Virus record (IMG/VR): IMGVR_UViG_3300044695_005756 | Coordinates: 1 to 64,000 of that record | Length of the DNA stretch: 64,000 nucleotides | Origin: a virus | Direction: 5' to 3' (one strand) | Part shown: one piece after another, positions 19,748-39,817 of the stretch | Layout of the letters: the number at the start of each line of letters is the position of its first letter | How positions within the stretch are numbered: position 1 is the first letter of the stretch | Notes under the pieces: generated by a model | Seen by the model: the letters and a program-made list of their open reading frames with translations, nothing else | Told to the model about the DNA's origin: nothing | The model's database searches: none | Position numbers and translations under genes: made by a program

Positions 19748-22700
19748 TTATGATACACTTCCCATAATTACACAAACAGTAGGACTTACAAACAATATTG
19801 TTGCAACGCCTCTTGTGGCAAGACTGACTGAAGATACATCCAAATTAAAACCTGCAATGTAGGCAGTAGTGATGCTGCAAGTAATAGTTACACTAGCACC
19901 TGTATTATTAAAGATTGAGATTGCATCACCAGCAGCAAAGACATTATTTGGAATTATAATAGAACCACCTGTGCCAATTTCAACAAATTCACCTACATCA
20001 GTTACCTCTAATGTGTACTGAGATGTTTTTTGTCCTACAGCAGGTATGTTTCTGAAACCCATTGTAAAACTTTGGTCTGGTATAGTGATTGTTCTGCTTG
20101 CAGTTAAAGTATCAGGAACAATAGTTGCTGAATAAGAACTTGTTCCTCCAGAACGTCCTTTGATGGTAATTGAATCTTGTGTCGTAGCATTTTCAACCAC
20201 AAGTCCATCTGTAGAACTAACCGTAACTTTAGCTGTAACTGTACCGCCATTGTTTGCGTCTAATGAATTATTCGCACGAATGAAAGCTGCGTTAGCGTGT
20301 AAGAAAGATGCATTTGTTGAGTCAAATATTGTATTCGTTCTTACTAATAAATCAATTCCCTTTGTTAAAACATACGTTGAATGTAAGTTAGCATTGAGAG
20401 TATCAATTACAAAAGAAGGATCAGTAATATCAATATTATTATTTTCTCCAACTTCAGGAGTATAACCTTTAAATAAGTACCATTCTTTTGTTACTGAATC
20501 ACGAATCAAACCTGAATGAGCATTTGTGCCATCATTATAATGACCAGCAAATCCTAAATCTTTCAAATCTGAGATATAATTTCCTGCACCAAGAACAATT
20601 ACTGTATCATTTGCAACCAACGTAGTCGCATTTACACTAAATGTTTGACCAGTAACAACTAAGTTACCCACAAACAAGTTATTGGTAACAGTCAAACTAC
20701 CAGTGATTGTACCACCATTATTTGCGTCAATTGAATTGTTTGCGCGAATAAATGCAGCGTTTGCTGTATTAAATGCTGGCTGAACTTGTGGTGCTACATT
20801 ATTAGCCGAATTGAAAGCTGCATTCGCATGATCATAAGCCGAATTTGATTGTATGAATCCAGAATTCGCATGAATAAATGCAGCGTTTGCGGTATTAAAT
20901 GCTGGCTGAACTTGTGGTGCTACATTATTAGCCGAATTGAAAGCTGCATTCGCATGATCATACGCCGAATTCGCTTGAATAAATCCAGAATTAGATTGAT
21001 TACGGGCGTATTGGTCTATTGATCCAGCCGCAATAGTGTTGGCAAAAACAAAAGCCGCATTTGCATGATCAAACGAAGCATTGGCTTGTATGAATCCAGA
21101 ATTTACATGAATGAATGCAGCGTTCGCTTGAATGAATCCAGAATTGGCGTGATCACGGGAATATTGATCTACTGATCCTGCTGAAAGTGTGTTAGCCCAA
21201 ATAAATGCGGCGTTAGCATGATCATATGCAGAATTTGTTTTTATGAATCCAGAATTCGCATGAATAAACGCAGCGTTAGCATATTCACCAGTCGAATTCT
21301 GTGACTGATATGCAGAGTTGGCATGAACAAATGCAGAATTGGCATATTGTCCAGTTGCGTTTTGGCTTTGATATGCGGCATTCGCATGATCAAAAGATGC
21401 ATTGGCTTTGATAAATGCGGAGTTGGCGTATGATGATGCAGCAGAACCACCTAAATCATCATAATTTGTGCCGTCATTTGTAAACTGCCATCTATCCAAT
21501 GTTTCATTCCATAACAGATAAACATTGGCAGAAGAACCTCTATCAACTTCTATTCCAGCATCTACGGTAGGAGCAGAAGACTGATCTATTGCCGCATTTA
21601 ATGTAATAATGTTATCAGCAATAAGAATTGTTGATGTGTTTACATATGTTGTTTGTCCAGTTACAGTCAAGTTACCTGTAATACGAACATCACCTGTAAC
21701 GGTACCACCATTGTTAGCGTCTAATGCATTGTTAGCACGAATAAATGCAGCGTTGGCATATTGACCTGTTGCATTTTGTGATTGATATGCCGAATTTGCA
21801 TGATCAAAAGATGCATTTGTTTGGATGAATCCGCTGTTCGCATGGATAAATGCACCGTTAGCTAATGTGAATGCTGCATTGGCATATTGACCTGTTGCAT
21901 TTTGACTTATGTACGCAGCATTAGCATGATCGAATCCAGAATTGGCATGAATAAATGCCGCGTTCGCATATTGACCTGTAGCATTCTGCGATTGATAAGC
22001 CGAGTTCGCATGATTGAATGCATAATTCGCATGTAAGAATGATGAATTTGCTTGAATAAATCCACTATTTGCATGATCGAAAGATGCATTTGCTTGAATA
22101 AATCCACTATTTGCATGAATGTAAGCAGCGTTAGCGGCAGCAAAAGCACCATTAGCGTTAGCAAAAGCGGCATTAGCAGCAGCAAAAGCACCATTCGCGT
22201 TGGCAAACGCAGCATTCGCGTGATCATAAGAACTGTTTGCTTGGATAAATCCACTATTTGCATGATCAAAGGATGAATTAGTTTTTATGAATCCGCTGTT
22301 CGCATGAATGAATGCGGCATTAGTATCATGGTACGCAGAGTTAGCTTGAATGAATCCAGAATTTGCGTGATCAAAAGATGCATTCGCTTGAATGAATCCA
22401 CTATTCGCATGATCGTAAGCGGCATTTGATTTTGCAAATGCACCATTAGCATTTGCGAATGCAGCATTAGCTTTGGCAAAAGCCCCGTTAGCGTTAGCAA
22501 ATGCAGCATTGGCATCATGATACGCCGAGTTTGCTTGGATAAATCCACTATTCGCATGATAGAAAGCGGAGTTCGCATAATGACCAGTTGCATTCTGACT
22601 TAGATACGCAGCATTCGCGTGATCGTATGCAGAATTTGTTTTTATGAATCCAGAGTTTGCGTGGATAAATGCCGCATTGGTATCATGATAAGCTGAATTG

Positions 22701-25700
22701 GCTTGGATGAATCCAGAATTCGCGTGATGATATGCATCATTTGCTTTTGCATAAGCGGCATTTGCGTTTGCAAAAGCATAGTTAGCATGATGAAAAGCAG
22801 AATTTGTTTGTATAAATCCACTATTTGCGTGAATGAATGCAGCGTTTGTTAAATCAAAGATTATATTTGTTCTTGGTAATAAATCAATACCTTTAATTGT
22901 AACAAAAGTCGAACGTAAATTGGCGTGAAGAGTATCGATTTCAAAAGAAGGATCATTGAGATCGACGTTATTATTTTCTCCAATTTCAGGAGTATAACCT
23001 TTGAACAGATGCCATTCTTTTGTGGTAGCATCTCGGATAAGACCCGAATGAGCATTTGTGCCATCGTTATAGTGACCAGCAAATCCTAAATCTCTAGTGT
23101 CGGCAAAATAGTTACCCTCTCCTAATACAATAACTGTATCGTTAGAGACAAGTGTTCCTGCATTGATACTAAATGTTTGACCTGTAACAAATATATTGCC
23201 TACAAATAAATTATTGGTAACAGTCAAACTACCAGTAATCGTACCACCATTATTTGCGTCAATCGAATTATTGGCTCTTAAAAATGCAGCATTCGCATAT
23301 TGACCTGTAGCATTCTGTGAGATATACGCAGCATTTGTGTGATCGTATGCACTATTTGCTTGTATGAATCCGCTGTTTGCATGATCGAATGCTGAATTAG
23401 TTTTAATGAATGCAGCATTAGCGTCATGATACGCAGAGTTAGCTTGAATAAATGCCGAGTTTGCATGATGATATCCATCATTTGCTTTTGCATAAGCGGC
23501 ATTTGCGTTTGCAAATGCATAAGAAGTGTAGACGTATAAATCTACAGTTCCATTTGAGCCAAAGAAGTAGTTTGAGAAAATGGCATTTGCACCAGTAATG
23601 CTTCCATTTCCACCAACTGTTGTAACTGATTCTGTTGTTATGTTACCAGTAACACTAAATTCACCTGCAACATTAATCGACGCTGATACATTACCACCAA
23701 CGTTGGCATCTAACGAATTGTTTGCGCGAATAAATGCAGCGTTTGCTGTATCAAATGCTGAATTCGTTTTTATGAATGCAGAGTTGGCATGATTAAATGC
23801 ATAGTTTGTATGCAAGAATGCCGAATTTGTTTTAATGAATGCGGAGTTAGCATGAATGAAAGCGGCATTTGCGTATTGACCAGTTGCATTCTGTGAGATG
23901 TACGCAGCATTAGCATGATCGTAAGACGAATTTGTTTTAATAAACGCAGAGTTTGCATGTAAGAAAGATGCATTAGCATGTAAGAATGCAGCGTTTGTAT
24001 CGTGATATGCAGAATTAGCTTGAATAAATCCAGAGTTCGCATGAATGTATGCTGCGTTAGCAGCGGCAAATGCACCGTTGGCATTTGCGAATGCTGCATT
24101 AGCTTTAGCGAAAGCACCGTTGGCATTTGCGAATGCTGCATTAGCATCATGATACGCACTATTTGCTTGAATAAATCCAGAGTTCGCATGGATGTAAGCC
24201 GCATTAGCAGCAGCAAAAGCACCATTTGCATTAGCAAAAGCAGCGTTAGCTTTAGCAAAAGCACCATTCGCATTGGCAAACGCGGCGTTGGCATCGTGGT
24301 ATGCACTATTTGCTTGGATAAATCCAGAGTTTGCGTGATGAAACGCCGCGTTTGCATCATGATACGCAGAGTTTGCTTGGATGAATCCACTATTCGCATG
24401 ATTGAACGAATAATTTGCATGTAAGAATGCAGAATTCGTTTTTATAAATGCTGAATTGGCATGAATAAATGCTGCATTGGCATCGTGATATGCGGAGTTT
24501 GCTTGAATGAATCCAGAGTTTGCATGATCAAAAGATGCATTCGCTTTGATAAATGCAGAGTTGGCATACGATGATGCTGAAGTTGCACCTAAATCATCAT
24601 AACCAATACCGTCATTCGTAAATTGCCACTTATCTAGTGTTTCATTCCACAACAGATATACATTTGCCAAAGCACCGCGATCAACTTCAACTCCTGCGTC
24701 AGAAATAGGTGTCTGTGACTGATTTACTGCTGCATTGAGTGTAATAATATTGTCGGCAATTAATACCGTAGAAGTGTTTACATATGTTGTCTGTCCAGTT
24801 ACAGTCAAGTTACCTGTAATACGAACATCACCTGTAACCGTACCACCAACATTCGCATCAAGTGCATTGTTGGCACGAATGTATGCATAATTTGCATGTA
24901 AGAATGCAGAGTTTGTTTTTATGAATGCACTATTCGCTTGAATGTATGCTGCATTAGATTTGGCAAAAGCACCATTTGCATTTGCAAATGCGGAGTTGGC
25001 TTGTCTGAATGCACCGTTGGCATATACACCAGCAGAATTCGCTGCAATAAATGCACCATTGGCGTTTGCAAAAGTTGCATTCGCTTGAATATAAGCGGAA
25101 TTTGCGTGTATGAATCCTGAATTTGCGTGTATGTAAGCTGCATTTGATTTAGCAAAAGCACCGTTAGCGTTTGCGAATGCTGCATTTGCGTGATCATAAG
25201 AAGAATTCGCATGAATAAATGCTGCGTTGGCATATTGTCCTGTTGCATTCTGTGACAAATAAGCTGCATTAGCTAAATCAAAAGCCGCATTTGTTTGAAT
25301 GAAACTTGAATTCGCATGAATAAACGCACCATTTGCTACCGTAAATGCAGCGTTCGCATATTGACCTGTTGCATTTTGGCTTAGGTATGCCGCATTAGCA
25401 AGATCAAATGCTGCGTTAGTTTGAATAAATGCGCTATTTGCTTGAATATATGCAGCATTAGCGGCGGCATATGCGCCATTCGCATTAGCAAAAGCAGCGT
25501 TTGCGTGATGAAATCCAGAATTCGCATGAATGAATGCACCATTAGCTACTGTAAATGCAGCATTTGCATAATTGCCAGTTGCGTTCTGTGATTGATACGC
25601 AGAATTTGCATGTATGAATGCTGATTGAGCGTGAGTTATTCCTGCATTAGCTTGAATAAATCCAGAATTTGCGTGGATAAATGCTGCGTTGGCATATTGA

Positions 25701-26986
25701 CCAGTTGCATTTTGTGAGATATAAGATGCGTTTGCGTGATCAAAAGATGCATTTGCTTTAATGAATGCCGAGTTGGCGTAAGAAGATGCGGAAGAACCAC
25801 CTAAATCGTCATAACCTACACCATCGTTTGTAAACTGCCATTTCTCTAGAGTTTCATTCCACAACAAGTAGACGTTAGACAAAGCGCCGCGATCAACTTC
25901 AATTCCTGCATCGGCAACTGGAATTGATGACTGATTGATTGCAGCATTTAATGTAATGATATTATCAGCAATTAATACAGTTGAAGTATTAACATATGTT
26001 GTATTACCTGTGACAGTAAGATTACCTGTAATACGAACATCACCTGTAACTGTACCGCCAACATTCGCACTCAGAGAATTGTTTGCTCTTAAAAATGCTG
26101 CATTGGCATATTCACCTGTTGCATTTTGACTTTGATATGCGGCATTTGCATGTACGAAAGCCGAGTTCGCGTATTGTCCAGTGGCATTTTGAGAAATGTA
26201 ACTAGAGTTGGCATGATTAAACGCGGCATTTGTTTTTATAAACGAACTATTTGCGTGAATAAAAGCAGCATTAGCGTCATGATACGCAGAGTTGGCTTGG
26301 TTAAATGCTGCATTAGCATATTGACCAGTTGCATTCTGTGATTGGTAAGCGGAGTTCGCATGTAAGAATGCAGCGTTTGTTTTAATAAATGCTGAGTTGG
26401 CATGAATAAAGCCAGCGTTAGCGTGAATGAATGCCGCGTTAGCTTGAGTGAATGCTGAGTTTGTATATTCACCAGTTGCATTTTGACTTAAAAATGCAGC
26501 GTTTGCTCTATCGAATGCAAGATTTACTTGTGCAAAACTAGAGTTTGCATGAATGAATGCAGCGTTAGCATATTGACCAGTCGCATTTTGTGAGATGTAA
26601 GATGCGTTCGCATGGTCAAATGCGGAATTAGTTTTAATGAACGCGGAGTTGGCATGTAAAAATGCGGCGTTCTGTGAAATGTAAGATGCGTTTGCATGAT
26701 CGAATGATGCGTTTGCTTTAATGAAAGCACCGTTTGCTTGTGCATATGCGGCTGTGACATTAGTGAGTGTGCTATTTGCCGCTTCAAACGCGCCATTCGA
26801 ACGATCAAATGCGTAGATTGAACGTAGATACGATTCATATCCACCAATAGGTACTGCTCCTGTTCCAGCTGGAGTTCCTATGTATAACGTATTACTGCTG
26901 TATGAATAACCTGGTTCACCAACATTTAGTGAAGATGGCGCGTTTGTTACTAATGATCTTTTTATTTGAATAGGTGTATTTGCCAT
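19748..26986 (-). CDS. Giant heptad-repeat tail fibre (2412 residues)
   Basis: The N-terminal about 55 residues form a phage fibre attachment-type domain (QIKRSLVTNAPSSLNVGEPGYSYSSNTLYIG). Most of the rest is a 7-residue repeat, [A/T/Q]-N-x-x-[F/Y]-x-x, as in ANSGFIQ and ANAAFIH. Ala and Phe/Tyr alternate 3 and 4 apart, a coiled-coil spacing, so I infer a very long trimeric shaft. Beta modules interrupt it: three copies with VTGDVRITGNLTVTG (about 25770-26080, 24560-24880, 21430-21735), two with GSLTVTNNLFVGN (22855-23270, 20320-20735) and one different (23520-23740). The C-terminal about 85 residues form a domain shared with two other fibres and with a free-standing 88-residue protein. The DNA repeats in 21-bp units. 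Probably the host-binding or long side fibre. Confidence 0.85.
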   Translation of the reverse strand: MANTPIQIKRSLVTNAPSSLNVGEPGYSYSSNTLYIGTPAGTGAVPIGGYESYLRSIYAFDRSNGAFEAANSTLTNVTAAYAQANGAFIKANASFDHANASYISQNAAFLHANSAFIKTNSAFDHANASYISQNATGQYANAAFIHANSSFAQVNLAFDRANAAFLSQNATGEYTNSAFTQANAAFIHANAGFIHANSAFIKTNAAFLHANSAYQSQNATGQYANAAFNQANSAYHDANAAFIHANSSFIKTNAAFNHANSSYISQNATGQYANSAFVHANAAYQSQNATGEYANAAFLRANNSLSANVGGTVTGDVRITGNLTVTGNTTYVNTSTVLIADNIITLNAAINQSSIPVADAGIEVDRGALSNVYLLWNETLEKWQFTNDGVGYDDLGGSSASSYANSAFIKANASFDHANASYISQNATGQYANAAFIHANSGFIQANAGITHAQSAFIHANSAYQSQNATGNYANAAFTVANGAFIHANSGFHHANAAFANANGAYAAANAAYIQANSAFIQTNAAFDLANAAYLSQNATGQYANAAFTVANGAFIHANSSFIQTNAAFDLANAAYLSQNATGQYANAAFIHANSSYDHANAAFANANGAFAKSNAAYIHANSGFIHANSAYIQANATFANANGAFIAANSAGVYANGAFRQANSAFANANGAFAKSNAAYIQANSAFIKTNSAFLHANYAYIRANNALDANVGGTVTGDVRITGNLTVTGQTTYVNTSTVLIADNIITLNAAVNQSQTPISDAGVEVDRGALANVYLLWNETLDKWQFTNDGIGYDDLGATSASSYANSAFIKANASFDHANSGFIQANSAYHDANAAFIHANSAFIKTNSAFLHANYSFNHANSGFIQANSAYHDANAAFHHANSGFIQANSAYHDANAAFANANGAFAKANAAFANANGAFAAANAAYIHANSGFIQANSAYHDANAAFANANGAFAKANAAFANANGAFAAANAAYIHANSGFIQANSAYHDTNAAFLHANASFLHANSAFIKTNSSYDHANAAYISQNATGQYANAAFIHANSAFIKTNSAFLHTNYAFNHANSAFIKTNSAFDTANAAFIRANNSLDANVGGNVSASINVAGEFSVTGNITTESVTTVGGNGSITGANAIFSNYFFGSNGTVDLYVYTSYAFANANAAYAKANDGYHHANSAFIQANSAYHDANAAFIKTNSAFDHANSGFIQANSAYDHTNAAYISQNATGQYANAAFLRANNSIDANNGGTITGSLTVTNNLFVGNIFVTGQTFSINAGTLVSNDTVIVLGEGNYFADTRDLGFAGHYNDGTNAHSGLIRDATTKEWHLFKGYTPEIGENNNVDLNDPSFEIDTLHANLRSTFVTIKGIDLLPRTNIIFDLTNAAFIHANSGFIQTNSAFHHANYAFANANAAYAKANDAYHHANSGFIQANSAYHDTNAAFIHANSGFIKTNSAYDHANAAYLSQNATGHYANSAFYHANSGFIQANSAYHDANAAFANANGAFAKANAAFANANGAFAKSNAAYDHANSGFIQANASFDHANSGFIQANSAYHDTNAAFIHANSGFIKTNSSFDHANSGFIQANSSYDHANAAFANANGAFAAANAAFANANGAFAAANAAYIHANSGFIQANASFDHANSGFIQANSSFLHANYAFNHANSAYQSQNATGQYANAAFIHANSGFDHANAAYISQNATGQYANAAFTLANGAFIHANSGFIQTNASFDHANSAYQSQNATGQYANAAFIRANNALDANNGGTVTGDVRITGNLTVTGQTTYVNTSTILIADNIITLNAAIDQSSAPTVDAGIEVDRGSSANVYLLWNETLDRWQFTNDGTNYDDLGGSAASSYANSAFIKANASFDHANAAYQSQNATGQYANSAFVHANSAYQSQNSTGEYANAAFIHANSGFIKTNSAYDHANAAFIWANTLSAGSVDQYSRDHANSGFIQANAAFIHVNSGFIQANASFDHANAAFVFANTIAAGSIDQYARNQSNSGFIQANSAYDHANAAFNSANNVAPQVQPAFNTANAAFIHANSGFIQSNSAYDHANAAFNSANNVAPQVQPAFNTANAAFIRANNSIDANNGGTITGSLTVTNNLFVGNLVVTGQTFSVNATTLVANDTVIVLGAGNYISDLKDLGFAGHYNDGTNAHSGLIRDSVTKEWYLFKGYTPEVGENNNIDITDPSFVIDTLNANLHSTYVLTKGIDLLVRTNTIFDSTNASFLHANAAFIRANNSLDANNGGTVTAKVTVSSTDGLVVENATTQDSITIKGRSGGTSSYSATIVPDTLTASRTITIPDQSFTMGFRNIPAVGQKTSQYTLEVTDVGEFVEIGTGGSIIIPNNVFAAGDAISIFNNTGASVTITCSITTAYIAGFNLDVSSVSLATRGVATILFVSPTVCVIMGSVS
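20740..26800 (-). repeat. 21-bp coding tandem repeats of the giant fibre shaft
   Basis: Degenerate direct repeats of 21 bases (7 codons) run through the shaft, interrupted by the beta modules. Longer near-identical duplications are seen, for example 20755-20842 against 20880-20965 (TGCTGGCTGAACTTGTGGTG and flanks) and 24020-24170 against 24185-24340. Because the period is a multiple of three, all reading frames stay open across long stretches. Confidence 0.85.
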
Positions 26987-29794: not shown

Positions 29795-32700
29795 TTAAAG
29801 ATTACCATTAAAATATGCTGCTGTAACAATTCCTAAAGGAACTTCCGCTCCTGTTGAAATTTTTTGTCCTACTTCTGCATTATACGGAACGAAATGAATT
29901 TCACCATTTGGCATAAGAACACCTCCTCCATGAGCTACAAATGAATTAGTATACACTAAAGAGTATGTAGACACAATACCTGAAGCGGATATTTTTTGAC
30001 CTACAATTGCGCTGCCTGGAACAAAGTGTACGTCACCATTTGGCGCAAGAACTGCACCTTCATAATTAAATTGATTACCGTATTTTACAGGCGTGGTATA
30101 TTGTTGATTTTTAACGATAAAGACTCTTCCTAAGCCATCCGAGTATTGAAATACTAAATGTCCATCCGCGTCTATTGTAGCATTTTTACCTTGAGGATTA
30201 AAAGTACCAAAAAAAGGACCTGTATTGTAATATTCAGTAAAAAATCCATTTGGAAACATTCTTGATGGAAGAGGAGCTAAATGAGGAATAAAATAAATTG
30301 ATCCATCAGGAAGTAAAACGCTTCCCCAATTCGTGCCTCCCGTGTAATTTGTGTTTATGAGTGAATATGTTGAAACTACACCTGTTCTTGATATTTTTTG
30401 TCCAACAAGGGCTTGAAATGCAGCAAAATGAATTTCGCCATTTGGAGCAAGAGTACCTCCAATATAAGCTGATGTAGTGGTATATGCTAATGCATACGTT
30501 GATACAACTCCGCTAGCGGATACTTTTTGCCCTCTTACAGCGTTATAAGGAACAAAATGAATGTCGCCGTTTGGTGCAAGAACACCACCAGAATAAAGAT
30601 TGGGATTCGCTGCTGATGTTGTGTAAACTAATGCATATGTCGATGCAACACCATCAGCAGATATTTTTTGTCCTCTGTTTGCATTATACGGAACAAAATG
30701 AAGTTCACCATTTTGTGAAAGAACTCCACCATAATATCCAAACGAAGTAGTATATGCCAATGCATACGTTGATATTATGCCATTCACGCCGTTATTATTA
30801 AACAATGAACCTCGATCAACATTTCTTTGCAGAGTTCTGTTTAAACTTATCTCAGCTTGCTCGGAAAGGTATTGTTCTATCGATGGATTAACAAGATCAG
30901 CATAATAAGTAGTCCCATTTGCAGCTGGATAAGATGCGGTAGTATCAGTAGAAACTAAAGTACCAGGTAAAGATTTTGGTAATATTGTAGCAGTTAAAGC
31001 TTTTTTCGCTTTTGTGAAAACTGTTTGTCGTGATATGAGTTCGTATTTTCCAATTCCTAACGAATAACCAACGGGAACAAGTGATTGAGGATAAATTGAA
31101 CTGGCATATGGAATAACATTTGAAGTGTCTGAAGAATCATGCGCTCGTCTTATAAGGACATTTGGTTTATTGACCAGCTTCATCCCATATCGCTGAGTAG
31201 TTTGTTGAATAAAATACACATCTCCAGATTCGGAAAGAACGCCTCCTTGATGAATACGCTGCAATATCGGATACGTTGATATTACACCAGCGGATGATAT
31301 TTTTTGACCGACTTGTGCGGAATCTGGAACAAAATGAACATCGCCTCGACTATCAAGAACACCACCACGGTATGCACCACTTCCAGAGGTAATTACTAAT
31401 GAATACGTCGATACTACACCAGCGGATGATAATTTTTGTCCTCTGTTGGCAAAATAAGGAACAAAATGAGTGTCACCATTTGGTGCAAGAACACCACCCC
31501 AATAAGACGCACCAGCGGTATACACTAATGAATATGTCGATGTAACACCATCAGCAGATATTTTTTGTCCAACTCTTGCACTATAAGGAACAAAGTGTAC
31601 GTCACCGTTTGGCGCAAGAACACCACCTTGATAAGCAGTAGCAGTTGTGTATACCAACGAATATGTTGAAACATAAATGGGCACACTTTCGTTAGTTAAT
31701 AATTTCTGGCCTCTATTTGCATTGAAAGGCACAAACTGAACATCTCCACTAACATCAAGAACACCACCAGCATATGCAGCGGCTGTTGTGTACGCTAATG
31801 AATATGTTTGTACGATTCCATCGGAAAATATTTTTTGTCCTACTCTTGCAGAATCTGGAACAAAATGAATACTGCCATTACCGTCAAGAACACCGCCATC
31901 ATATGCAGCGGTTGTTGTGTACGCTAATGAATATGTTGTAGGATATTGAGATAAAAATTTATTGAACTCTATAACTTGTCCAACTTCTGCTTCATATGGA
32001 GCAAGATAAAAGGTGTTGCCTGTACTATCCATGGCACCACCAAGGTATGGCTGATTGGAAGCTGTGTATGCTAATGCGTATGTTGATACAACACCATCAG
32101 AAGAAACTTTTTGTCCTACTTTTGCATTATAAGGTGCAAAATGTATATCTCCATTATATGCTTTTCCGCCATAAGCATATGCACTAGAAGTTGTGTATAC
32201 TAATGAATATGTAGACACGACACCAGCAGAAGAAACTTTTTGCCCTCTGTTTGCAAGGAGTGGCACAAAATGTATATCTCCGTTGTTATCAAGAACACCA
32301 CCCGAATATGCAGCAGTAGTAGTATACACCAATGAATATGTTGATACAACACCAGCAGAAGAAACTTTTTGCCCTCTGATCGCACTATAAGGAACAAAAT
32401 GAACATCGCCGTTACTATCAAGAACACCACCTCGATAAGCACCAGAAATCGTATATACCAACGAATATGTTGATATGATACCAGCGGATGATATTTTTTG
32501 TCCTCTTGTGGCAGAAAAAGGCACGAAATGAATGTCGCCATTGTTATCAAGAACACCACCATTGTATGCGGAACCAGCGGTTAATACTAATGAGTATGTC
32601 GATACGACACCAGCAGAAGAAACTTTTTGTCCAACTCTTGCACTAAAATTTACAAAATGAATATCACCATTGTTATCTAAAACGCCACCTTCATACGCAT

Positions 32701-34150
32701 TAGTAACTGTATGAACCAATGAAAATGTTGATACTACGCCAGCAGACGATATTTTTTGTCCTCTGTTAGCATCATTGGGTATAAAATACACATCACCATT
32801 ATTATCAAGAACGCCTCCAGCATATGCACCACCAGACGTTGTATATACTAATGAGTAAGTTGTAGGATAGTGTTCAAGTGTGACATCAAATTGTAACTTT
32901 TGTCCTACTCTTGCACTAAAAGGTACAAAATGTGCTTCGTTATTGTTATTTAAAACACCGCCATCATATGCAGCAGAAGCGGTAGTATATGCTAATGCAT
33001 ATGTTGACACAACTCCTGACGATGAAATTTTTTGCCCTCTAGCGGCACTAAGCGGAATAAAATGTACATCGCCATTCGGTGCAAGAATACCGCCAGCGTA
33101 TGCAGTAATAGATGTGTATACTAATGAATACGTCGATACTACACCAGCAGATGATAGTTTTTGTCCTATATCCGCATTATAAGGAACAAAATGTATATCA
33201 TCGTTATTATCTAAAATACCTCCTTTATACTTCGCAAGAGCGGTACTGTTTACTAAAGAGTATGTTGTTATAACACCAGCAGACGATATTTTTTGTCCTA
33301 TGACAGCATTAAAGGGCACAAAATGAATATCGTTATTACTATCTAAAACACCACCGTTATATGCATTAGTAGCTGTATACACCAATGAAAATGTTGACAC
33401 GACACCAGCAGACGATATTGTTAGTCCTCTATTTGCATTATAATTTACAAAATAAATGTCGTTATTATTTGCAAGAACACCACCAGAATATGCACCAGCA
33501 GTTGTATATACTAACGAATACGTTGATGGAACTTGAGGTGCGAATCCATTTGGAGTTACTTTTTGTCCTCTGTTTGAATTATATGGCACAAAATATACAT
33601 CGCCATTCGGTGCAAGAACACCACCAGAATATCCAAAATTAGACGTTGTGAATATTAATGAGTAAGTTGTTATAACACCAGCAGATGATATCATTTGTCC
33701 TCTAGTGGCATTCCGAGGCACAAAATGTATATTACCAAGAGCGTCTAGAACTGCTGCACTCCAAAAATTAGCTCCAGATACTGAATAAGGATAAGTAAAT
33801 ACTGTACCATCTGTTGTTATTCTTATTCCTCTATCACCATCTACATTTACAATATGAATTTCATTATTGCTGGTGCGAACTGCTCCCGCAAGCTCACTAA
33901 CAGAGACAGAGGCTGTGCGGAGTGCATCATTATATGAATGAAGAACTTGAGGATAATCTACAAGAGTTGCTGTACCTACTTCCCATTTATCACCATCGAC
34001 AATTGAATAGTCAAACTCATCACCCATTGAATAGGTTGCAGCAGAAATTTTTTCGACATTGGCCGAACTCAATCTTATATTGGGTTCGAACGCATCTTCA
34101 CGCTGTGAAAAAGTACCTGTTTGTGATCTATCTTTTACTTGGCGTGCCAT
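29795..34150 (-). CDS. Giant beta-propeller tail protein, 21+7 blades (1451 residues)
   Basis: The largest of three tandem paralogues. The N-terminus ends with YSIVDGDKWEVGTATL, part of a tail-fibre N-terminal domain. A first array of 21 repeats of about 43 residues follows; core AY.GGVLDNNGDIHFVPF.A..GQK.SSAGVVSTYSLVYTT, the sequence of a four-stranded propeller blade. Four odd linkers break the array after blades 3, 8, 15 and 17 (about 33540, 32890, 31955 and 31690). A spacer (about 30780-31180, containing GIGKYELISRQTVF) leads to a second array of 7 blades (29800-30775). Probably a host-surface-binding fibre; no enzyme motif. Neighbours are two shorter paralogues upstream and the glycosyltransferase-methyltransferase downstream. 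Confidence 0.85.
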   Translation of the reverse strand: MARQVKDRSQTGTFSQREDAFEPNIRLSSANVEKISAATYSMGDEFDYSIVDGDKWEVGTATLVDYPQVLHSYNDALRTASVSVSELAGAVRTSNNEIHIVNVDGDRGIRITTDGTVFTYPYSVSGANFWSAAVLDALGNIHFVPRNATRGQMISSAGVITTYSLIFTTSNFGYSGGVLAPNGDVYFVPYNSNRGQKVTPNGFAPQVPSTYSLVYTTAGAYSGGVLANNNDIYFVNYNANRGLTISSAGVVSTFSLVYTATNAYNGGVLDSNNDIHFVPFNAVIGQKISSAGVITTYSLVNSTALAKYKGGILDNNDDIHFVPYNADIGQKLSSAGVVSTYSLVYTSITAYAGGILAPNGDVHFIPLSAARGQKISSSGVVSTYALAYTTASAAYDGGVLNNNNEAHFVPFSARVGQKLQFDVTLEHYPTTYSLVYTTSGGAYAGGVLDNNGDVYFIPNDANRGQKISSAGVVSTFSLVHTVTNAYEGGVLDNNGDIHFVNFSARVGQKVSSAGVVSTYSLVLTAGSAYNGGVLDNNGDIHFVPFSATRGQKISSAGIISTYSLVYTISGAYRGGVLDSNGDVHFVPYSAIRGQKVSSAGVVSTYSLVYTTTAAYSGGVLDNNGDIHFVPLLANRGQKVSSAGVVSTYSLVYTTSSAYAYGGKAYNGDIHFAPYNAKVGQKVSSDGVVSTYALAYTASNQPYLGGAMDSTGNTFYLAPYEAEVGQVIEFNKFLSQYPTTYSLAYTTTAAYDGGVLDGNGSIHFVPDSARVGQKIFSDGIVQTYSLAYTTAAAYAGGVLDVSGDVQFVPFNANRGQKLLTNESVPIYVSTYSLVYTTATAYQGGVLAPNGDVHFVPYSARVGQKISADGVTSTYSLVYTAGASYWGGVLAPNGDTHFVPYFANRGQKLSSAGVVSTYSLVITSGSGAYRGGVLDSRGDVHFVPDSAQVGQKISSAGVISTYPILQRIHQGGVLSESGDVYFIQQTTQRYGMKLVNKPNVLIRRAHDSSDTSNVIPYASSIYPQSLVPVGYSLGIGKYELISRQTVFTKAKKALTATILPKSLPGTLVSTDTTASYPAANGTTYYADLVNPSIEQYLSEQAEISLNRTLQRNVDRGSLFNNNGVNGIISTYALAYTTSFGYYGGVLSQNGELHFVPYNANRGQKISADGVASTYALVYTTSAANPNLYSGGVLAPNGDIHFVPYNAVRGQKVSASGVVSTYALAYTTTSAYIGGTLAPNGEIHFAAFQALVGQKISRTGVVSTYSLINTNYTGGTNWGSVLLPDGSIYFIPHLAPLPSRMFPNGFFTEYYNTGPFFGTFNPQGKNATIDADGHLVFQYSDGLGRVFIVKNQQYTTPVKYGNQFNYEGAVLAPNGDVHFVPGSAIVGQKISASGIVSTYSLVYTNSFVAHGGGVLMPNGEIHFVPYNAEVGQKISTGAEVPLGIVTAAYFNGNL

Positions 34151-34153
34151 GTC

Positions 34154-37100
34154 TTATAACTTATTGAAAAATGGACTGAGAACAATTTCTGTATCCAATG
34201 GTCGACTAAATGTGTATAGTTTGTACTGAGTTGCATCATTACGAATCGCAATTATGTTTCCATCAAAATCTAAATTTGCTCCAATACAAAGTGGTGTTCC
34301 AGAAATCAAAGGTGATGTGATTAACGATTGTATGCCAGAAGGCGTAATTTTTAAAATACCTGATGTTCCATTATAAGGAACAAAGTATATGTTTCCTGCT
34401 GGATCTAAAACACCACTTTGAAAAGCACCAGCAGTTGTGTATACTAATGAATATGTAGACACAACACCAGCAGCAGAAACTTTTTGCCCTATAGTTGCAG
34501 AATGAGGCACAAAATGCACATCGCCATTTGGTGCAAGAACACCACCAACGTAAGCATCGGCAGCAGTATATACTAAAGAGTATGTAGACACAATACCTGA
34601 AGCGGATATTTTTTGACCTACGATTGCGTTGCCTGGTACAAAATGCACATCGCCATTTGGTGCAAGAACACCACCAGCATATGTATCAGCAGCAGTATAT
34701 ACTAATGAATATGTTGATACAACACCAGCAGCAGAAACTTTTTGTCCGACTATCGCGTTGCGTGGAACAAAGTGAATATCACCATTTGATGCAAAGATGC
34801 CACCAATATATGCTAAAGATGTTGTGTAAACTAATGCATATGTCGATACAACACCAGCAGCAGATATTTTTTGCCCTACTGTTGCGTTACACGGAACGAA
34901 ATGAACATCACCATTCGATGCAAGAACACCACCAGCATATGCATAATTAGCCGTTGTGTACACCAATGCATATGTTGATACTGCACCGTATTGAGATATT
35001 TTTTGACCTCTGTTAGCACTATCTGGAACAAAATGAATATCACCATTAAGTGCAAGAACACCACCCCAGTATGCACTAGCAGTTGTGTATACTAATGAAA
35101 ATGTAGACACTACAGGATTTTTAAATGTTGTTCCTGCCGTAATACTCTTCATCCACGCTCTTTGAAGTCCTCTCCAAGAAGTCAACGTGGAATTAATTGA
35201 TGAATCATCTCCTGTTGGAACAGCGCCTTGCACAACACTTGAAGGTAACGGTATGAATACGTCTTTTATTCCTGATGAAAAATTCACTTTGTCTGGAACA
35301 TTGGCAGTTACATTAGATGATGAAATGACTAAATCTCTACTCAATGTTGAAGCAAGTCTTTGTCCAACTGTTGATCCAAAAGGAACAAAATGTAATTCAC
35401 CTTGTTTATCAATAACACCACCGTTATATGCTAAACTGCCAGTCGAAGTAAGTGGATAAGTTGATACGACACCAGCAAGAGATATTTTTTGTCCAATTCC
35501 AGAATCGTAAGGAATAAAATGAACTTCTCCATCGCGTGTTTGAATACCGCCACGATAGGCAGTACTGCCTGTATTTACCAATGAATACGTTGATACAACA
35601 CCGTATTGAGATATTTTTTGTCCGACTGTCGCACTACTTGGCACAAAATGCACATCGCCGTTTCGTGCAAGGACACCACCGTCATATGCGCCAACAGTCG
35701 TATACACAAGTGAATAAGTTGATACGACACCAGCAAGAGATATTTTTTGTCCTCTGATAGCGTTATTTGGTATAAAATGTACATCACCGTTTGGCGCAAG
35801 AACACCACCAGCGTATGCACCAGCTGCGGTAGTATATACTAATGAATATGTTGATACTACACCAGCTGATGATAATTTTTGCCCCCTATTACCGACAAAA
35901 GGAACAAAATGAACATCGCCGTTACTATCAAGAACACCACCTCGATAAGCAGTAGCAGTTGTGTATACCAACGAATATGTTGAAGAAAATATTGAGAAAA
36001 ATTTGTTAAACTCCGCTACTTGTCCTACTGTAGCAGAAGAAGGAACAAATTGTAATTTATTTTGGCCGTCTAGAACACCACCATTGTAATGTCCAGGTGA
36101 AGTTCGTACTAATGTATATGTCGATACAACGCCAGCAGATGATATTTTCTGTCCTCTTGTAACACCATTTTGCACAAAATGTACATCGCCTCGACTATCA
36201 AGGACACCACCACGATATGCACCACCTCCAGAAGTAATTACTAATGAATATGTTGATACTACACCAGCGGATGATAATTTTTGTCCTACTCTTGCTTCAT
36301 AGTTTACAAAATGTATATCACCTCGACTATCAAGAACACCGCCGGAAAAAGAGCGAACTGTGGTATACACCAATGAATATGTTGATACTACACCAGCAGA
36401 AGATACTTTTTGTCCTCTGTTTGCACTAAAAGGAATAAAATGAACGTCACCATTTCTGTCTAATACTCCACCAGAATATGCAAAAGATGCCGTATATACT
36501 AATGGGTATGTATAAGTGCCAAACTGATCCAACTTTAGTCCTACTCTTGCATTATAAGGAACAAAATAAATGTTTCCATTGCCATCATAAACACCTCCAT
36601 CATAAGCACCGCCAACAGTATATGCTAAATCATAAGTTGATGCGACACCAAGGTAATTCACTTTTTGTCCTATGTCGGCATTATAAGGAACAAAATGAGT
36701 ATCGCCTAAAAAAAGTCCATCAAATACTCCTCCAGAATATGCATTCAAAGTGGTGTACACCAAATCATAAGTTGATACAACACCAGCAGATGATATCATC
36801 TGTCCTACAGACGCATTAAAAGGAGCGAAATGAATATCCTTTCTATCATTCAAAGCACCACCTTGATACGCTAAAGACACGGTGTAAACTAAAGGATATG
36901 TGCTAGAATAAACTTCGGGCGTGATATCGAACTGTAACTTTTGTCCTATACCAACACTATAAGGAATAAAATGCATTTCACCAAGACGATTTACTACACC
37001 CTCAAAATATGCACTATCAGCGGTATGCGCCAATGAGTATGTTGATACAACGCCGTATTGAGATATTTTTTGACCGACTTCCGCACTATAAGGAACAAAA

Positions 37101-37381
37101 TGAACGTCAGCATTTCCTGAAATAGTTGGCGCAAGAACACCGCCTGCATAACCATTTCCAGTTGTGTACACTAATGAATATGTTACAGGAACTTGATACA
37201 TTGATACTGTTCCTATTCCAACCTCAAAAGCATTTCGATCTTCGATTGTGTAATAAGTTTGATTATTATGACATACGTTCGCAAATGATTGATAACCTGA
37301 AACTGCGTAATCAAGTGTTACGTTTCCTGTTCCAGTTGTATTTGTTGTGACGAACGCTCTATCTAAAGCAACAAAAGCCAT
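34154..37381 (-). CDS. Giant beta-propeller tail protein, 14+7 blades (1075 residues)
   Basis: The N-terminal about 63 residues match a widespread phage tail domain (TTNTTGTGNVTLDYAVSGYQSF, then YYTIEDRNAFEVGIGT). Fourteen propeller repeats follow (about residues 77-678). The interrupted domain then resumes with LSRDLVISSSN (680-690) and VNFSSGIKDVFIPLPSS (about 699-715). After a short spacer come seven more repeats to the C-terminus, which ends LSPFFNKL like the neighbour's LSPFLNKL. In the first array two unusual linkers (residues 149-160 with LQFDITPE, and 456-468 with AEFNKFFSIFSS) enclose exactly seven blades. Role inferred as surface-binding fibre. Four bases separate it from the next gene. 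Confidence 0.85.
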   Translation of the reverse strand: MAFVALDRAFVTTNTTGTGNVTLDYAVSGYQSFANVCHNNQTYYTIEDRNAFEVGIGTVSMYQVPVTYSLVYTTGNGYAGGVLAPTISGNADVHFVPYSAEVGQKISQYGVVSTYSLAHTADSAYFEGVVNRLGEMHFIPYSVGIGQKLQFDITPEVYSSTYPLVYTVSLAYQGGALNDRKDIHFAPFNASVGQMISSAGVVSTYDLVYTTLNAYSGGVFDGLFLGDTHFVPYNADIGQKVNYLGVASTYDLAYTVGGAYDGGVYDGNGNIYFVPYNARVGLKLDQFGTYTYPLVYTASFAYSGGVLDRNGDVHFIPFSANRGQKVSSAGVVSTYSLVYTTVRSFSGGVLDSRGDIHFVNYEARVGQKLSSAGVVSTYSLVITSGGGAYRGGVLDSRGDVHFVQNGVTRGQKISSAGVVSTYTLVRTSPGHYNGGVLDGQNKLQFVPSSATVGQVAEFNKFFSIFSSTYSLVYTTATAYRGGVLDSNGDVHFVPFVGNRGQKLSSAGVVSTYSLVYTTAAGAYAGGVLAPNGDVHFIPNNAIRGQKISLAGVVSTYSLVYTTVGAYDGGVLARNGDVHFVPSSATVGQKISQYGVVSTYSLVNTGSTAYRGGIQTRDGEVHFIPYDSGIGQKISLAGVVSTYPLTSTGSLAYNGGVIDKQGELHFVPFGSTVGQRLASTLSRDLVISSSNVTANVPDKVNFSSGIKDVFIPLPSSVVQGAVPTGDDSSINSTLTSWRGLQRAWMKSITAGTTFKNPVVSTFSLVYTTASAYWGGVLALNGDIHFVPDSANRGQKISQYGAVSTYALVYTTANYAYAGGVLASNGDVHFVPCNATVGQKISAAGVVSTYALVYTTSLAYIGGIFASNGDIHFVPRNAIVGQKVSAAGVVSTYSLVYTAADTYAGGVLAPNGDVHFVPGNAIVGQKISASGIVSTYSLVYTAADAYVGGVLAPNGDVHFVPHSATIGQKVSAAGVVSTYSLVYTTAGAFQSGVLDPAGNIYFVPYNGTSGILKITPSGIQSLITSPLISGTPLCIGANLDFDGNIIAIRNDATQYKLYTFSRPLDTEIVLSPFFNKL

Positions 37382-37390
37382 AATTTTTCT

Positions 37391-39817
37391 TTAAAGTTTG
37401 TTTAAAAATGGACTAAGACAAGCATTTACAGGCAAAGGATTAACCGAAAGCGTTGCAATTTTTTGTCCTACTACACCAGAAAAAGGTGCGAAGTATATAT
37501 CACCGTTTGGCATAAGCGCACCACCGATATACGCACTTGCAACAACATACGGCAATGAGTATGTAGACACAACTCCAGAAGTGGATATTTTTTGACCTCT
37601 GTTGGCAGCAAATGGTATAAAATGTACATCACCGTTTGGCGCAAGAACACCACCAGCATATGCAGTAGCGACAGTATAAACAAGTGGATATGTCGATACA
37701 GCGCCATCAGCAGATATTTTTTGTCCTCTGTTTGCTGAATGAGGCACAAAATTTATGTCGCCATTAACTGCAAGAACACCACCAAGATACGCAGCAGCAA
37801 TACTGTACACTAATGAATATGTAGACACGACACCAGCGGCAGAAATTTTTTGTCCTCTGTTTGCATTAAATGGCACAAAGTGTACGTCACCGTTTGGCGC
37901 AAGAACACCACCAGCATATGCGGTAGTGGCTGTGTATATCAACGAATAAGTCGATACGACACCAGATGACGATATCATTTGTCCTCTGTTAGCTGAGTAA
38001 GGTACAAAATGTATGTCGCCGTTCGGAGAAACAACGCCTCCAACGTAAGCATCGGCAGCAGTATATACTAAGGAGTATGTTGACACAACGCCTGAAGCAT
38101 TTATTTTTTGACCTCTGTTAGCACTTCGCGGCACAAAATGTACATCACCGTTTGGTGCAAGAATACCGCCATAATACGCATTAGCGACTGTATGTAATAA
38201 AACATAAGTGGATGGAATACCCAACTTCGAAAGTTTTTGTCCTCTTACAGCGGAATGTGGCACAAAGTGTGTGTCACCATTTGGTGCAAGAATTGCTCCA
38301 GCATATCCAGAAGCAACAGTATATGGTAATGTAAATGTTGATGCGATACCAGCAGTATTCGCATTATCGTATGCATTTCCACCTAAAGCACTCTGTTCCA
38401 ATAAACCTCTAAATGGTTTCCATCCTGATAAATTAGAATCGATTTCATTATTATCAAATGTTGGTACTCCACCGACAGCAATCGAATTTGGATATACGAG
38501 TGAAATGTTTGCCGATGTAGTTAGATTGCTAGGCGATAGATAAATTGCTTGTCCGTTGTTCGATGAATCGAAAATTTTATCTCTTGTAATCGCATTTACT
38601 AAAACTCTTTGTGCTGCCGTAGCACTATGATTTGCAAATATAATTCCAATGTCATTGTTTGATGACAACGCTCCACCAAATAAACCAGCGGTTGATGTTA
38701 CTGCTAATGAATATGTGGTAAATATACCTAAACTTTGATCATATACAGTACCTACTCTTGCGCTATACGGAACAAAGTGAACATTACCATTTCTGTCCAA
38801 TACTCCGCCGGCATATGCATTTGTTGTTGTATAAGGTAATGGATATGTGGAACTTGAGACTAACGCAAGCATAACTGACGCATTATATGGAATACAATAT
38901 ACTTCACCAGGATAATTAGCAGAGAATGATCTCACTACGCCACCAATATATGCACCCGCTGTTGTGTACGGAAGACCATAAGTGGTTGCAATAAAATTGG
39001 CCATGTATTGCCCTACTTGTGCATTGAATGGAACAAAGTAGTTTCCGCCATTAACAGTATATCCACCTTGATATGCGCCTGCAGTAGTATATGCTAACGC
39101 CCAAGTTGATGCAATTGTATTAGTAGTGTCAATTGTTTGTCCTACCGCTGCGTTATACGGAACAAAATGAATATAGTAAGGATATGTGACTGTATCGACA
39201 ATTCCACCAGAATATGCACCAGCAACTGTGTATGCTAAAGAGTATGTTGACACAATACCTGCCGATGATACTTTTTGTCCTCTGTTGGCATTATAAGGAA
39301 TAAAATGTACTTCATTATCCCCACCAAGAACACCGCCCTGATATGCACCAGCAACTGTGTATGTTAATGGATATGTTGATACAACACCTGCCGATGATAC
39401 TTTTTGTCCTCTTGTGGCAGAAAAAGGCACGAAATGAATGTCGCCATTAGCGTCACGAACTGCTCCAGAATACGCTGTAGTTGCGGTTGCGGTAACGGCA
39501 AATGTTGAAACTATTGGAGATTTTCCGCGGTATGTTGCTTTTCCTATTTCCCATTCACCATTTTTAGGCTCAAGAGAATAATAAAACTCACTATTAAGAC
39601 TTCCCGAATAATCATTATCTACAAAAGCAAAATTTTTATATCCTGCAATCGTATAAGGTTTATACCCACTATAAGCTGGAATTCGTTCGTTATCGGTAAA
39701 GTTAGAAAAGTTTAAACCATCAGGATTTACTGGAGATGGTGTGTTCGCAAGAACCAGTGTTGAATTGCCACCAGAAAAAGTATTTCCACGTGTTCTACTA
39801 TTAAAAATTATCGTCAT
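37391..39817 (-). CDS. Beta-propeller tail protein, 7+7 blades (808 residues)
   Basis: The simplest of the three paralogues. The N-terminal about 100 residues include YYSLEPKNGEWEIGKATY, the first half of the tail domain. Seven blades follow (about 39500-38590), without the odd linkers. The second half of the domain (ITRDKIFDSSNNGQAIYLS, about 38580-38340) separates them from a second seven-blade array (38330-37400). Blade core: AYAGGVLAPNGDVHFVPFNANRGQKI. The C-terminus, LSPFLNKL, is shared with the 1075-residue neighbour. Probably part of the adsorption apparatus. No signal peptide or catalytic motif is visible. Confidence 0.85.
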   Translation of the reverse strand: MTIIFNSRTRGNTFSGGNSTLVLANTPSPVNPDGLNFSNFTDNERIPAYSGYKPYTIAGYKNFAFVDNDYSGSLNSEFYYSLEPKNGEWEIGKATYRGKSPIVSTFAVTATATTAYSGAVRDANGDIHFVPFSATRGQKVSSAGVVSTYPLTYTVAGAYQGGVLGGDNEVHFIPYNANRGQKVSSAGIVSTYSLAYTVAGAYSGGIVDTVTYPYYIHFVPYNAAVGQTIDTTNTIASTWALAYTTAGAYQGGYTVNGGNYFVPFNAQVGQYMANFIATTYGLPYTTAGAYIGGVVRSFSANYPGEVYCIPYNASVMLALVSSSTYPLPYTTTNAYAGGVLDRNGNVHFVPYSARVGTVYDQSLGIFTTYSLAVTSTAGLFGGALSSNNDIGIIFANHSATAAQRVLVNAITRDKIFDSSNNGQAIYLSPSNLTTSANISLVYPNSIAVGGVPTFDNNEIDSNLSGWKPFRGLLEQSALGGNAYDNANTAGIASTFTLPYTVASGYAGAILAPNGDTHFVPHSAVRGQKLSKLGIPSTYVLLHTVANAYYGGILAPNGDVHFVPRSANRGQKINASGVVSTYSLVYTAADAYVGGVVSPNGDIHFVPYSANRGQMISSSGVVSTYSLIYTATTAYAGGVLAPNGDVHFVPFNANRGQKISAAGVVSTYSLVYSIAAAYLGGVLAVNGDINFVPHSANRGQKISADGAVSTYPLVYTVATAYAGGVLAPNGDVHFIPFAANRGQKISTSGVVSTYSLPYVVASAYIGGALMPNGDIYFAPFSGVVGQKIATLSVNPLPVNACLSPFLNKL

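Follow-up and report, generated by a model that had tools for sequence, protein, structure and literature searches.

A spliced seven-blade propeller unit in a phage protein, seemingly part of a stepwise nesting of propellers

Three neighbouring genes of the virus record IMGVR_UViG_3300044695_005756 (IMG/VR), referred to as P0003, P0001 and P0002, are built from 43-residue propeller blades. We analysed the first 64 kb of this 94.5 kb record (the window), focusing on P0001, an open reading frame of 1075 aa on the minus strand (34154-37381); all features of the window given with coordinates below lie on the same strand. The three products match the Pfam family Vgb_lyase (PF24684) with 65.9 (P0001), 123.1 (P0002) and 82.3 bits (P0003) against a cut-off of 50, and the second array of P0003 matches solved Vgb lyases with E-values of 1.5e-13 to 1.2e-12 (2qc5 at 1.5e-13). 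Comparison of the propeller proteins with PHROGs yielded weak matches only. CPSF_A and MMS1 type domains belong to the DDB1/CPSF160 architecture; a Pfam scan of P0001 to E 1 recovered neither of these, only Vgb_lyase and one unrelated family below its cut-off. Misassembly of P0001 is unlikely, because contig 3300042453_001695, which bears another sample number, is 100% identical to the window over 21,270 bases.

The first blade array of P0001 lies between the two halves of a small carrier domain, the N-terminal half comprising residues 1-66 (...YYTIEDRNAFEVGIGT...; 37184..37381) and the C-terminal half residues 681-758 (LSRDLVISSSN...VNFSSGIKDVFIP...; 35108..35341). Blade anchors and a blade hidden Markov model (HMM) trained on 18 blades agree that this array, residues 66-680, contains 14 blades. 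Two of its 13 junctions, those after blades 2 and 9, are clearly lengthened, to 10 residues from the usual 6, all others being ordinary within one residue. The array thus reads as blades 1-2 of a putative host propeller (residues 66-149; 36935..37186), the entry linker QFDITPEVYS (150-159; 36905..36934), seven enclosed blades, 3-9, representing the putative inserted cassette (160-456; 36014..36904), the exit linker EFNKFFSIFS (457-466; 35984..36013) and host blades 10-14 (467-680; 35342..35983). The original prediction had described precisely this layout of 14 blades with odd linkers bracketing exactly seven; its further remark that the outer two and five blades also sum to seven is correct, simply by subtracting 7 from 14. 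Array 1 is followed by a spacer and by array 2 (residues 759-1060; 34202..35107), a seven-blade propeller in which six blades are detected by the HMM and the diverged last one was recognized by eye.

Long junctions are rare in this family. Among 1201 links, measured in HMM units, 1147 have length 2, 40 length 3, three length 1, two length 5, eight length 6 and one length 12. All eight links of length 6, corresponding to four additional residues, belong to P0001 (two), P0002 (four) and L089 (two), the last a relative described below. Two further 6-residue gaps precede last blades, one in array 2 of L039_2414, where that blade scores 13, below the census limit of 20, and one in L038. If placement were random, two long junctions among 13 would enclose seven blades in 6 of 78 placements, and the pattern of the 21-blade array of P0002 would arise in 36 of 4845; the joint chance is 0.0006 if the two genes are independent, which they are not fully.

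The census of array sizes covered 182 complete proteins, including the three from the window, after exclusion of 16 truncated ones and with a blade score limit of 20; loci other than L001-L009 were scanned with the blade HMM by script and part of them was also read by eye. Seven blades were found in 178 of 191 arrays. The 13 exceptions comprise two arrays of P0001, three of P0002, one in L039_1581 with a blade split by the HMM, a three-blade array in L057, one array of six and five of five, some of the latter probably representing cut or fused proteins. By HMM count, P0003 has 7+7 blades, P0001 14+6 and P0002 21+4+2, and reading diverged blades by eye raises the second array to seven in both P0001 and P0002. 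Because arrays of the family are mostly seven, a spacer-free run of 14 or 21 blades is exceptional and is a multiple of the ring number. The L049 and L057 proteins are near-identical and contain 7+7 and 7+3 blades, respectively, a difference due either to blades lost in nature or to a collapsed assembly. Five-hit arrays that depart from the rule of seven occur in L063, L078 and L148; in L063 and L078 the fifth blade is partial and merges into a glycine-rich region.

The same arrangement recurs in the paralogue P0002 (1451 aa; 29795..34150), which carries a 21-blade array followed by a second array. Its four long links, of 10 residues each, follow blades 3, 8, 15 and 17, so that blade HMM and link lengths together give the pattern 3[5[7]2]4: if folded as bracketed, this protein would be a propeller in a propeller in a propeller. 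The sequence tables place the outer linkers, TPNGFAPQVP at entry and LTNESVPIYV at exit, at 33527..33556 and 31670..31699, and the inner ones, QFDVTLEHYP and EFNKFLSQYP, at 32864..32893 and 31940..31969. The entry linker of P0001 shares 6 of 10 residues with the inner entry linker of P0002, and the exit linkers share likewise 6 of 10, bearing out the resemblance noted earlier. Furthermore, blades 3-9 of P0001 are collinear with blades 9-15 of P0002, the enclosed sevens aligning end to end at 58% identity with the exit linkers in register. The original prediction had concluded that one insertion unit is common to both genes. This stands as far as the homologous linkers and alignable sevens are concerned, but similarity between blades fails to mark out the enclosed seven as that unit: compared with the seven of P0001, a run of seven P0002 blades beginning at blade 6 scores higher (863) than the run beginning at blade 9 (823). 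Nor do the two genes support nesting independently, a claim that was overstated, since homologous linkers imply a shared origin.

A partial relative of P0002 is found in a different phage (L089, contig 3300020183_000446), which is 91.5% identical at the DNA level over 10.2 kb and 87% identical to P0002 over 882 protein columns. L089 stops inside the inner ring at the contig end, repeats the 4, 2, 4 spacing and retains both P0002 exit linkers with 9 of 10 residues each, its blades being identical at 356 of 424 positions. Searches with the QFD/EFNKF linkers retrieved no carrier of the linker pair beyond P0001, P0002, L089 and the identical contig; thus, linkers without an enclosed seven, which the original prediction had named as an observation that would speak against nesting, were not found in the relatives searched. 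Searches of viral_contigs for more nested relatives returned only L089 and the identical contig, a scan of genome_contigs returned none, and the phages collection contributed two Cylindrospermopsis phages, 32-34% identical across 23% of the query. The third paralogue, P0003 (808 aa; 37391..39817), has 7+7 blades without nesting, its first array occupying the corresponding carrier position.

Relatives lacking the inner unit, proposed earlier as worth searching for, do exist. Contig 3300042387_001265 (L039, L151) is syntenic with the window and has, in this order, a P0008-like gene, two fibre genes, a P0003-like gene, an orthologue of P0001, another propeller gene and P0006, which is 84% identical. 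The orthologue, L039_2414, has an overall layout of 7+7 blades, that is, 7 in array 1 versus 14 in P0001, and both halves of its carrier domain are 60% identical to those of P0001. In the adjacent gene, L039_3188, the carrier is uninterrupted and is followed by seven blades; the domain is continuous in L012 as well. Array 1 can therefore be regarded as an insert in the carrier domain, given the continuous carrier of L039_3188. A comparable filled and empty pair is provided by a fibre protein: two parts of the C-terminal domain of P0004 that adjoin in the window lie about 900 bases apart in L039 (L039:221-3424, L039_+1_73), where a seven-blade array separates them. Inserting whole seven-blade cassettes into loops is, judging from the sequences, an ordinary habit of this propeller family, and what would make P0001 special is that the receiving loop belongs to another propeller. 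The carrier loops accept other modules too. In two L055 proteins (L055:8948-10978 and L055:10982-12880) the loop used by array 1 of P0001 holds a Laminin_G_3 domain (E 6.7e-20 and 4.6e-18), modules being interchangeable in one loop, and in L031, L061, L054, L066 and L046 a neighbouring carrier loop contains a second repeat type of about 46 residues (FKPDGLKMYV), for which the two scanned cases, L031 and L061, gave only weak Pfam SGL/Lactonase matches.

These observations suggest a phage tail adhesin grown by repeated loop insertion of a seven-blade Vgb-type cassette. That such a cassette entered a seven-blade array is, as sequence history, well supported. We consider it probable that the protein is also a nested-propeller adhesin, in which the carrier received a seven-blade propeller and that propeller then received a second one after blade 2, leaving blades 3-9 as the inner ring and blades 1, 2 and 10-14 as the outer ring. 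By sequence, the boundary falls in the link between strand C (GQK..) and strand D (STYSLVYT). The unit would accordingly run D-A-B-C, its opening D strand closing the last blade, a 'velcro' closure of the kind described in the portion of PMC6805158 available to us. A ring of seven would then have its ends side by side, and the ends of the opened C-D link of the host would adjoin as well. Two antiparallel linkers could tie ring to ring, with the four extra residues of each bridging the gap between them. In P0002, the insertion would have happened twice over. The ring-within-ring fold is the most economical reading of the pattern, albeit an unproven one.

Structure prediction did not reproduce this order. 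Ring membership in the AlphaFold2 (AF2) models of array 1 was read from aligned ranges only. AF2 run without an alignment gave a predicted local distance difference test score (pLDDT) of 55.6 and best VIA matches to beta-solenoids; the solenoid fold was rejected as a repeat artefact, the sequence matches being to propellers. The second model was based on alignment A5, picked after several alignments had been simulated, since MAFFT scatters repeats. Its 38 rows consist of the query, P0002 blades 7-20, L089, five linear 7-x-7 arrays and 30 four-blade fragments drawn from 30 of 70 candidate loci; blades 8-9 are missing from some rows, and the five linear rows have long insertions after blade 7, so that any bias would be toward the linear answer. 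The resulting model shows four-stranded blades (DSSP) with pLDDT 77.7 and a predicted template modelling score (pTM) of 0.56. VIA superimposes its residues 1-397 on the Cake10 and Cake9 designs (Z 30.1 and 29.5, root-mean-square deviation 2.9, 360 and 358 residues aligned). The sole internal stretch of low confidence, residues 459-471, covers part of the exit linker and reaches into blade 10, and the entry linker is modelled as a longer hairpin.

Several results weigh against nesting. The A5 model joins blades 1-9 into a single ring, separate from 10-14, which is neither nested nor linear, so that arrays of seven by sequence face a model (pTM 0.56) closing nine. When P0001 blades 3-9 were omitted with the linkers kept, the remainder matched the orthologue array best, at 843 versus 742-839 for the other phases; restricted to blade cores, however, the comparison favours another phase, and 27% of shuffles score equally. 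Blade order thus does not locate the insertion, and blade-to-blade similarity, which is driven by the consensus-likeness of a blade, does not fix the phase. Neighbour-blade coupling across 180 seven-blade arrays showed distance-1 pairs to be no more informative than those at distance 2 or 3. In a classifier of first and last blades, whose area under the curve comes from training data, likeness to a seventh blade is also high for P0001 blades 2, 3 and 13, and is lacking in blade 17 of P0002, which would be terminal under nesting. In L039_1581, C-D links of unrelated sequence are long although nothing is inserted there, so link length alone is not diagnostic. Finally, the P0001 case amounts to one phage, seen in two assemblies. 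We weigh the 9+5 model only lightly, because its pTM is low, blades hold little ring-closure information, being close to interchangeable, and 9+5 would be unique among sevens. Thus, the nesting proposed originally holds as a seven-blade unit in a seven-blade host, in view of counts, linkers, the rule of seven, the orthologue and clean insertion elsewhere, but not as nested rings in the model.

Three other explanations have to be weighed against nesting. Blades 1-7 and 8-14 might close in linear order, with the long linkers being longer hairpins or recombination scars; WRAP, in which 14 uninterrupted blades make two sevens according to the sections of PMC6805158 and PMC8458387 consulted, sets a precedent, and L039_1581 shows that long C-D links can exist without an insertion. 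However, the long linkers of P0001 sit at 2 and 9, not 7, and blade 7 is followed by an ordinary link, whereas separate sevens in two-array proteins are divided by spacers of 35 to 83 residues. Seventh-blade-likeness is 9.0 for blade 9, 13.3 for blade 14 and -1.3 for blade 7 of P0001, and in P0002 it is high for blade 15 and low for blades 7 (-1.5) and 14 (-5.6); because it is high at 9 and 14 and low at 7, the linear split is disfavoured. Linear rings were moreover what the original prediction had named as the outcome contradicting nesting, and AF2, at its low pTM, did not predict them. Altogether we regard the linear order as unlikely.

Slightly less likely still are unequal rings, a nine-bladed one of blades 1-9 and a five-bladed one of 10-14, with the exit linker as an inter-domain connection and the entry linker as a longer C-D hairpin. 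The second AF2 model points this way, and eight or nine blades are attainable for designed Cake repeats and for WRAP fragments (PMC8458387, in the part available). On the other side stand the pTM of 0.56, blades nearly devoid of ring-closing information, the absence of blades 8-9 from some A5 rows, the family rule of seven, and the need for rings such as 8, 7 and 6 in P0002. The nesting could also be genetic only, the cassette having been copied into the array with the linkers as seams and the rings pairing in any way, possibly mixed. The near-interchangeable blades fit this, as do patches in which blades from different genes are roughly 75-80% identical in DNA, which suggest blade exchange; yet the exit linkers are kept at 9 of 10 residues in L089 while the blades drift, and all six linkers are of equal length, making this the least probable of the three.

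Nested rings would also agree with the pattern of variability. Among 738 distinct blades, positions 9, 10, 11, 14, 29, 30 and 32 have entropies of 2.5-3.8 bits, positions 39 and 40 of 1.9, and the remaining ones of about 1.4 or less. The variable positions fall in the D-A and B-C links, and the C-D link, where the insertion lies, is within the conserved part. By the usual strand assignment, one face of a propeller bears the D-A and B-C links and the opposite face the A-B and C-D links; the discs would thus probably show variable receptor-binding faces, and insertion at a C-D link would keep the variable face unobstructed. No reverse transcriptase that might be the source of blade variability was found in the 94.5 kb record, which may be incomplete.

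The genes surrounding the propeller cluster form a myovirus-like structural set encoding baseplate hub and wedges, sheath stabiliser, head closure, terminase and neck; near P0001 there are also genes for several fibre proteins whose repeats are of the HANSGF type. One of these (19748-26986) is a 2412-residue protein with very many HANSGF/YHDANAAF-type repeats and several similar domains between them. The protein P0006 (28423-29766) combines weak glycosyltransferase-like and methyltransferase-like matches; it is 98.7% identical in L089, versus 87% for the adjacent adhesin. The faster change of the adhesin fits a putative role in receptor binding.

In a more general form, to which we give slightly better than even chances, the scheme is a recursive propeller: closed seven-blade discs would be anchored in one another's outer hairpins through pairs of short linkers, with one level in P0001 and two in P0002. 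The blades being almost interchangeable, linkers alone would set the partners, the topology being one of matched brackets, and a phage lineage would thereby stack variable faces on one tail adhesin. The steps from empty carrier through one ring and ring in ring to ring in ring in ring would be visible in relatives and paralogues. If true, a nearly uniform repeat protein picks its ring partners by linker placement, offering a clear-cut way to test how topology is encoded, and adhesins can grow by closed domains inserted into one another as opposed to end-to-end addition. The carriers and relatives supply uninserted states for such topology tests.

Vgb lyases (PF24684; PDB 2qc5, 2z2n), which are single-ring enzymes, have the blade pattern and seven-blade arrays in common with P0001-P0003, unlike which they are neither multi-ring phage proteins nor built of near-identical blades. 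In integrin-type propellers, segments are inserted between blades, and the inserts are not propellers of the same family. The open-licence literature searched contained no paper on phage Vgb-type propellers and no case of a propeller inserted, with matching linkers and a second level, into one of the same repeat family. In SGS1, too, segments are inserted between blades, as in P0001, although the inserts are not same-family propellers (PMC9935623, as far as its available text goes). WRAP (Npun_R6612, PDB 2YMU) folds its 14 uninterrupted, near-identical blades into two seven-bladed propellers, and Cake9 is a nine-bladed design (PMC6805158 for the former, PMC8458387 for both, each in the sections consulted); those sections describe no paired long linkers in WRAP, whereas the junctions of P0001 are not uniform along the 14 blades, two of them being 4 residues longer. 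Non-linear propeller topology is already known from DDB1 and CPSF160, whose propellers are not in linear tandem order and in which three separate chain regions form one propeller (PMC5760199, in the portion available). The sequence pattern of P0001 fits such a discontinuous propeller with an inserted one, which the 9+5 model of AF2 does not show. DDB1 and CPSF160 are, however, eukaryotic, WD40-type and of one fixed architecture, whereas in P0001 the inserted and host rings would come from one repeat family, with two nesting levels in P0002.

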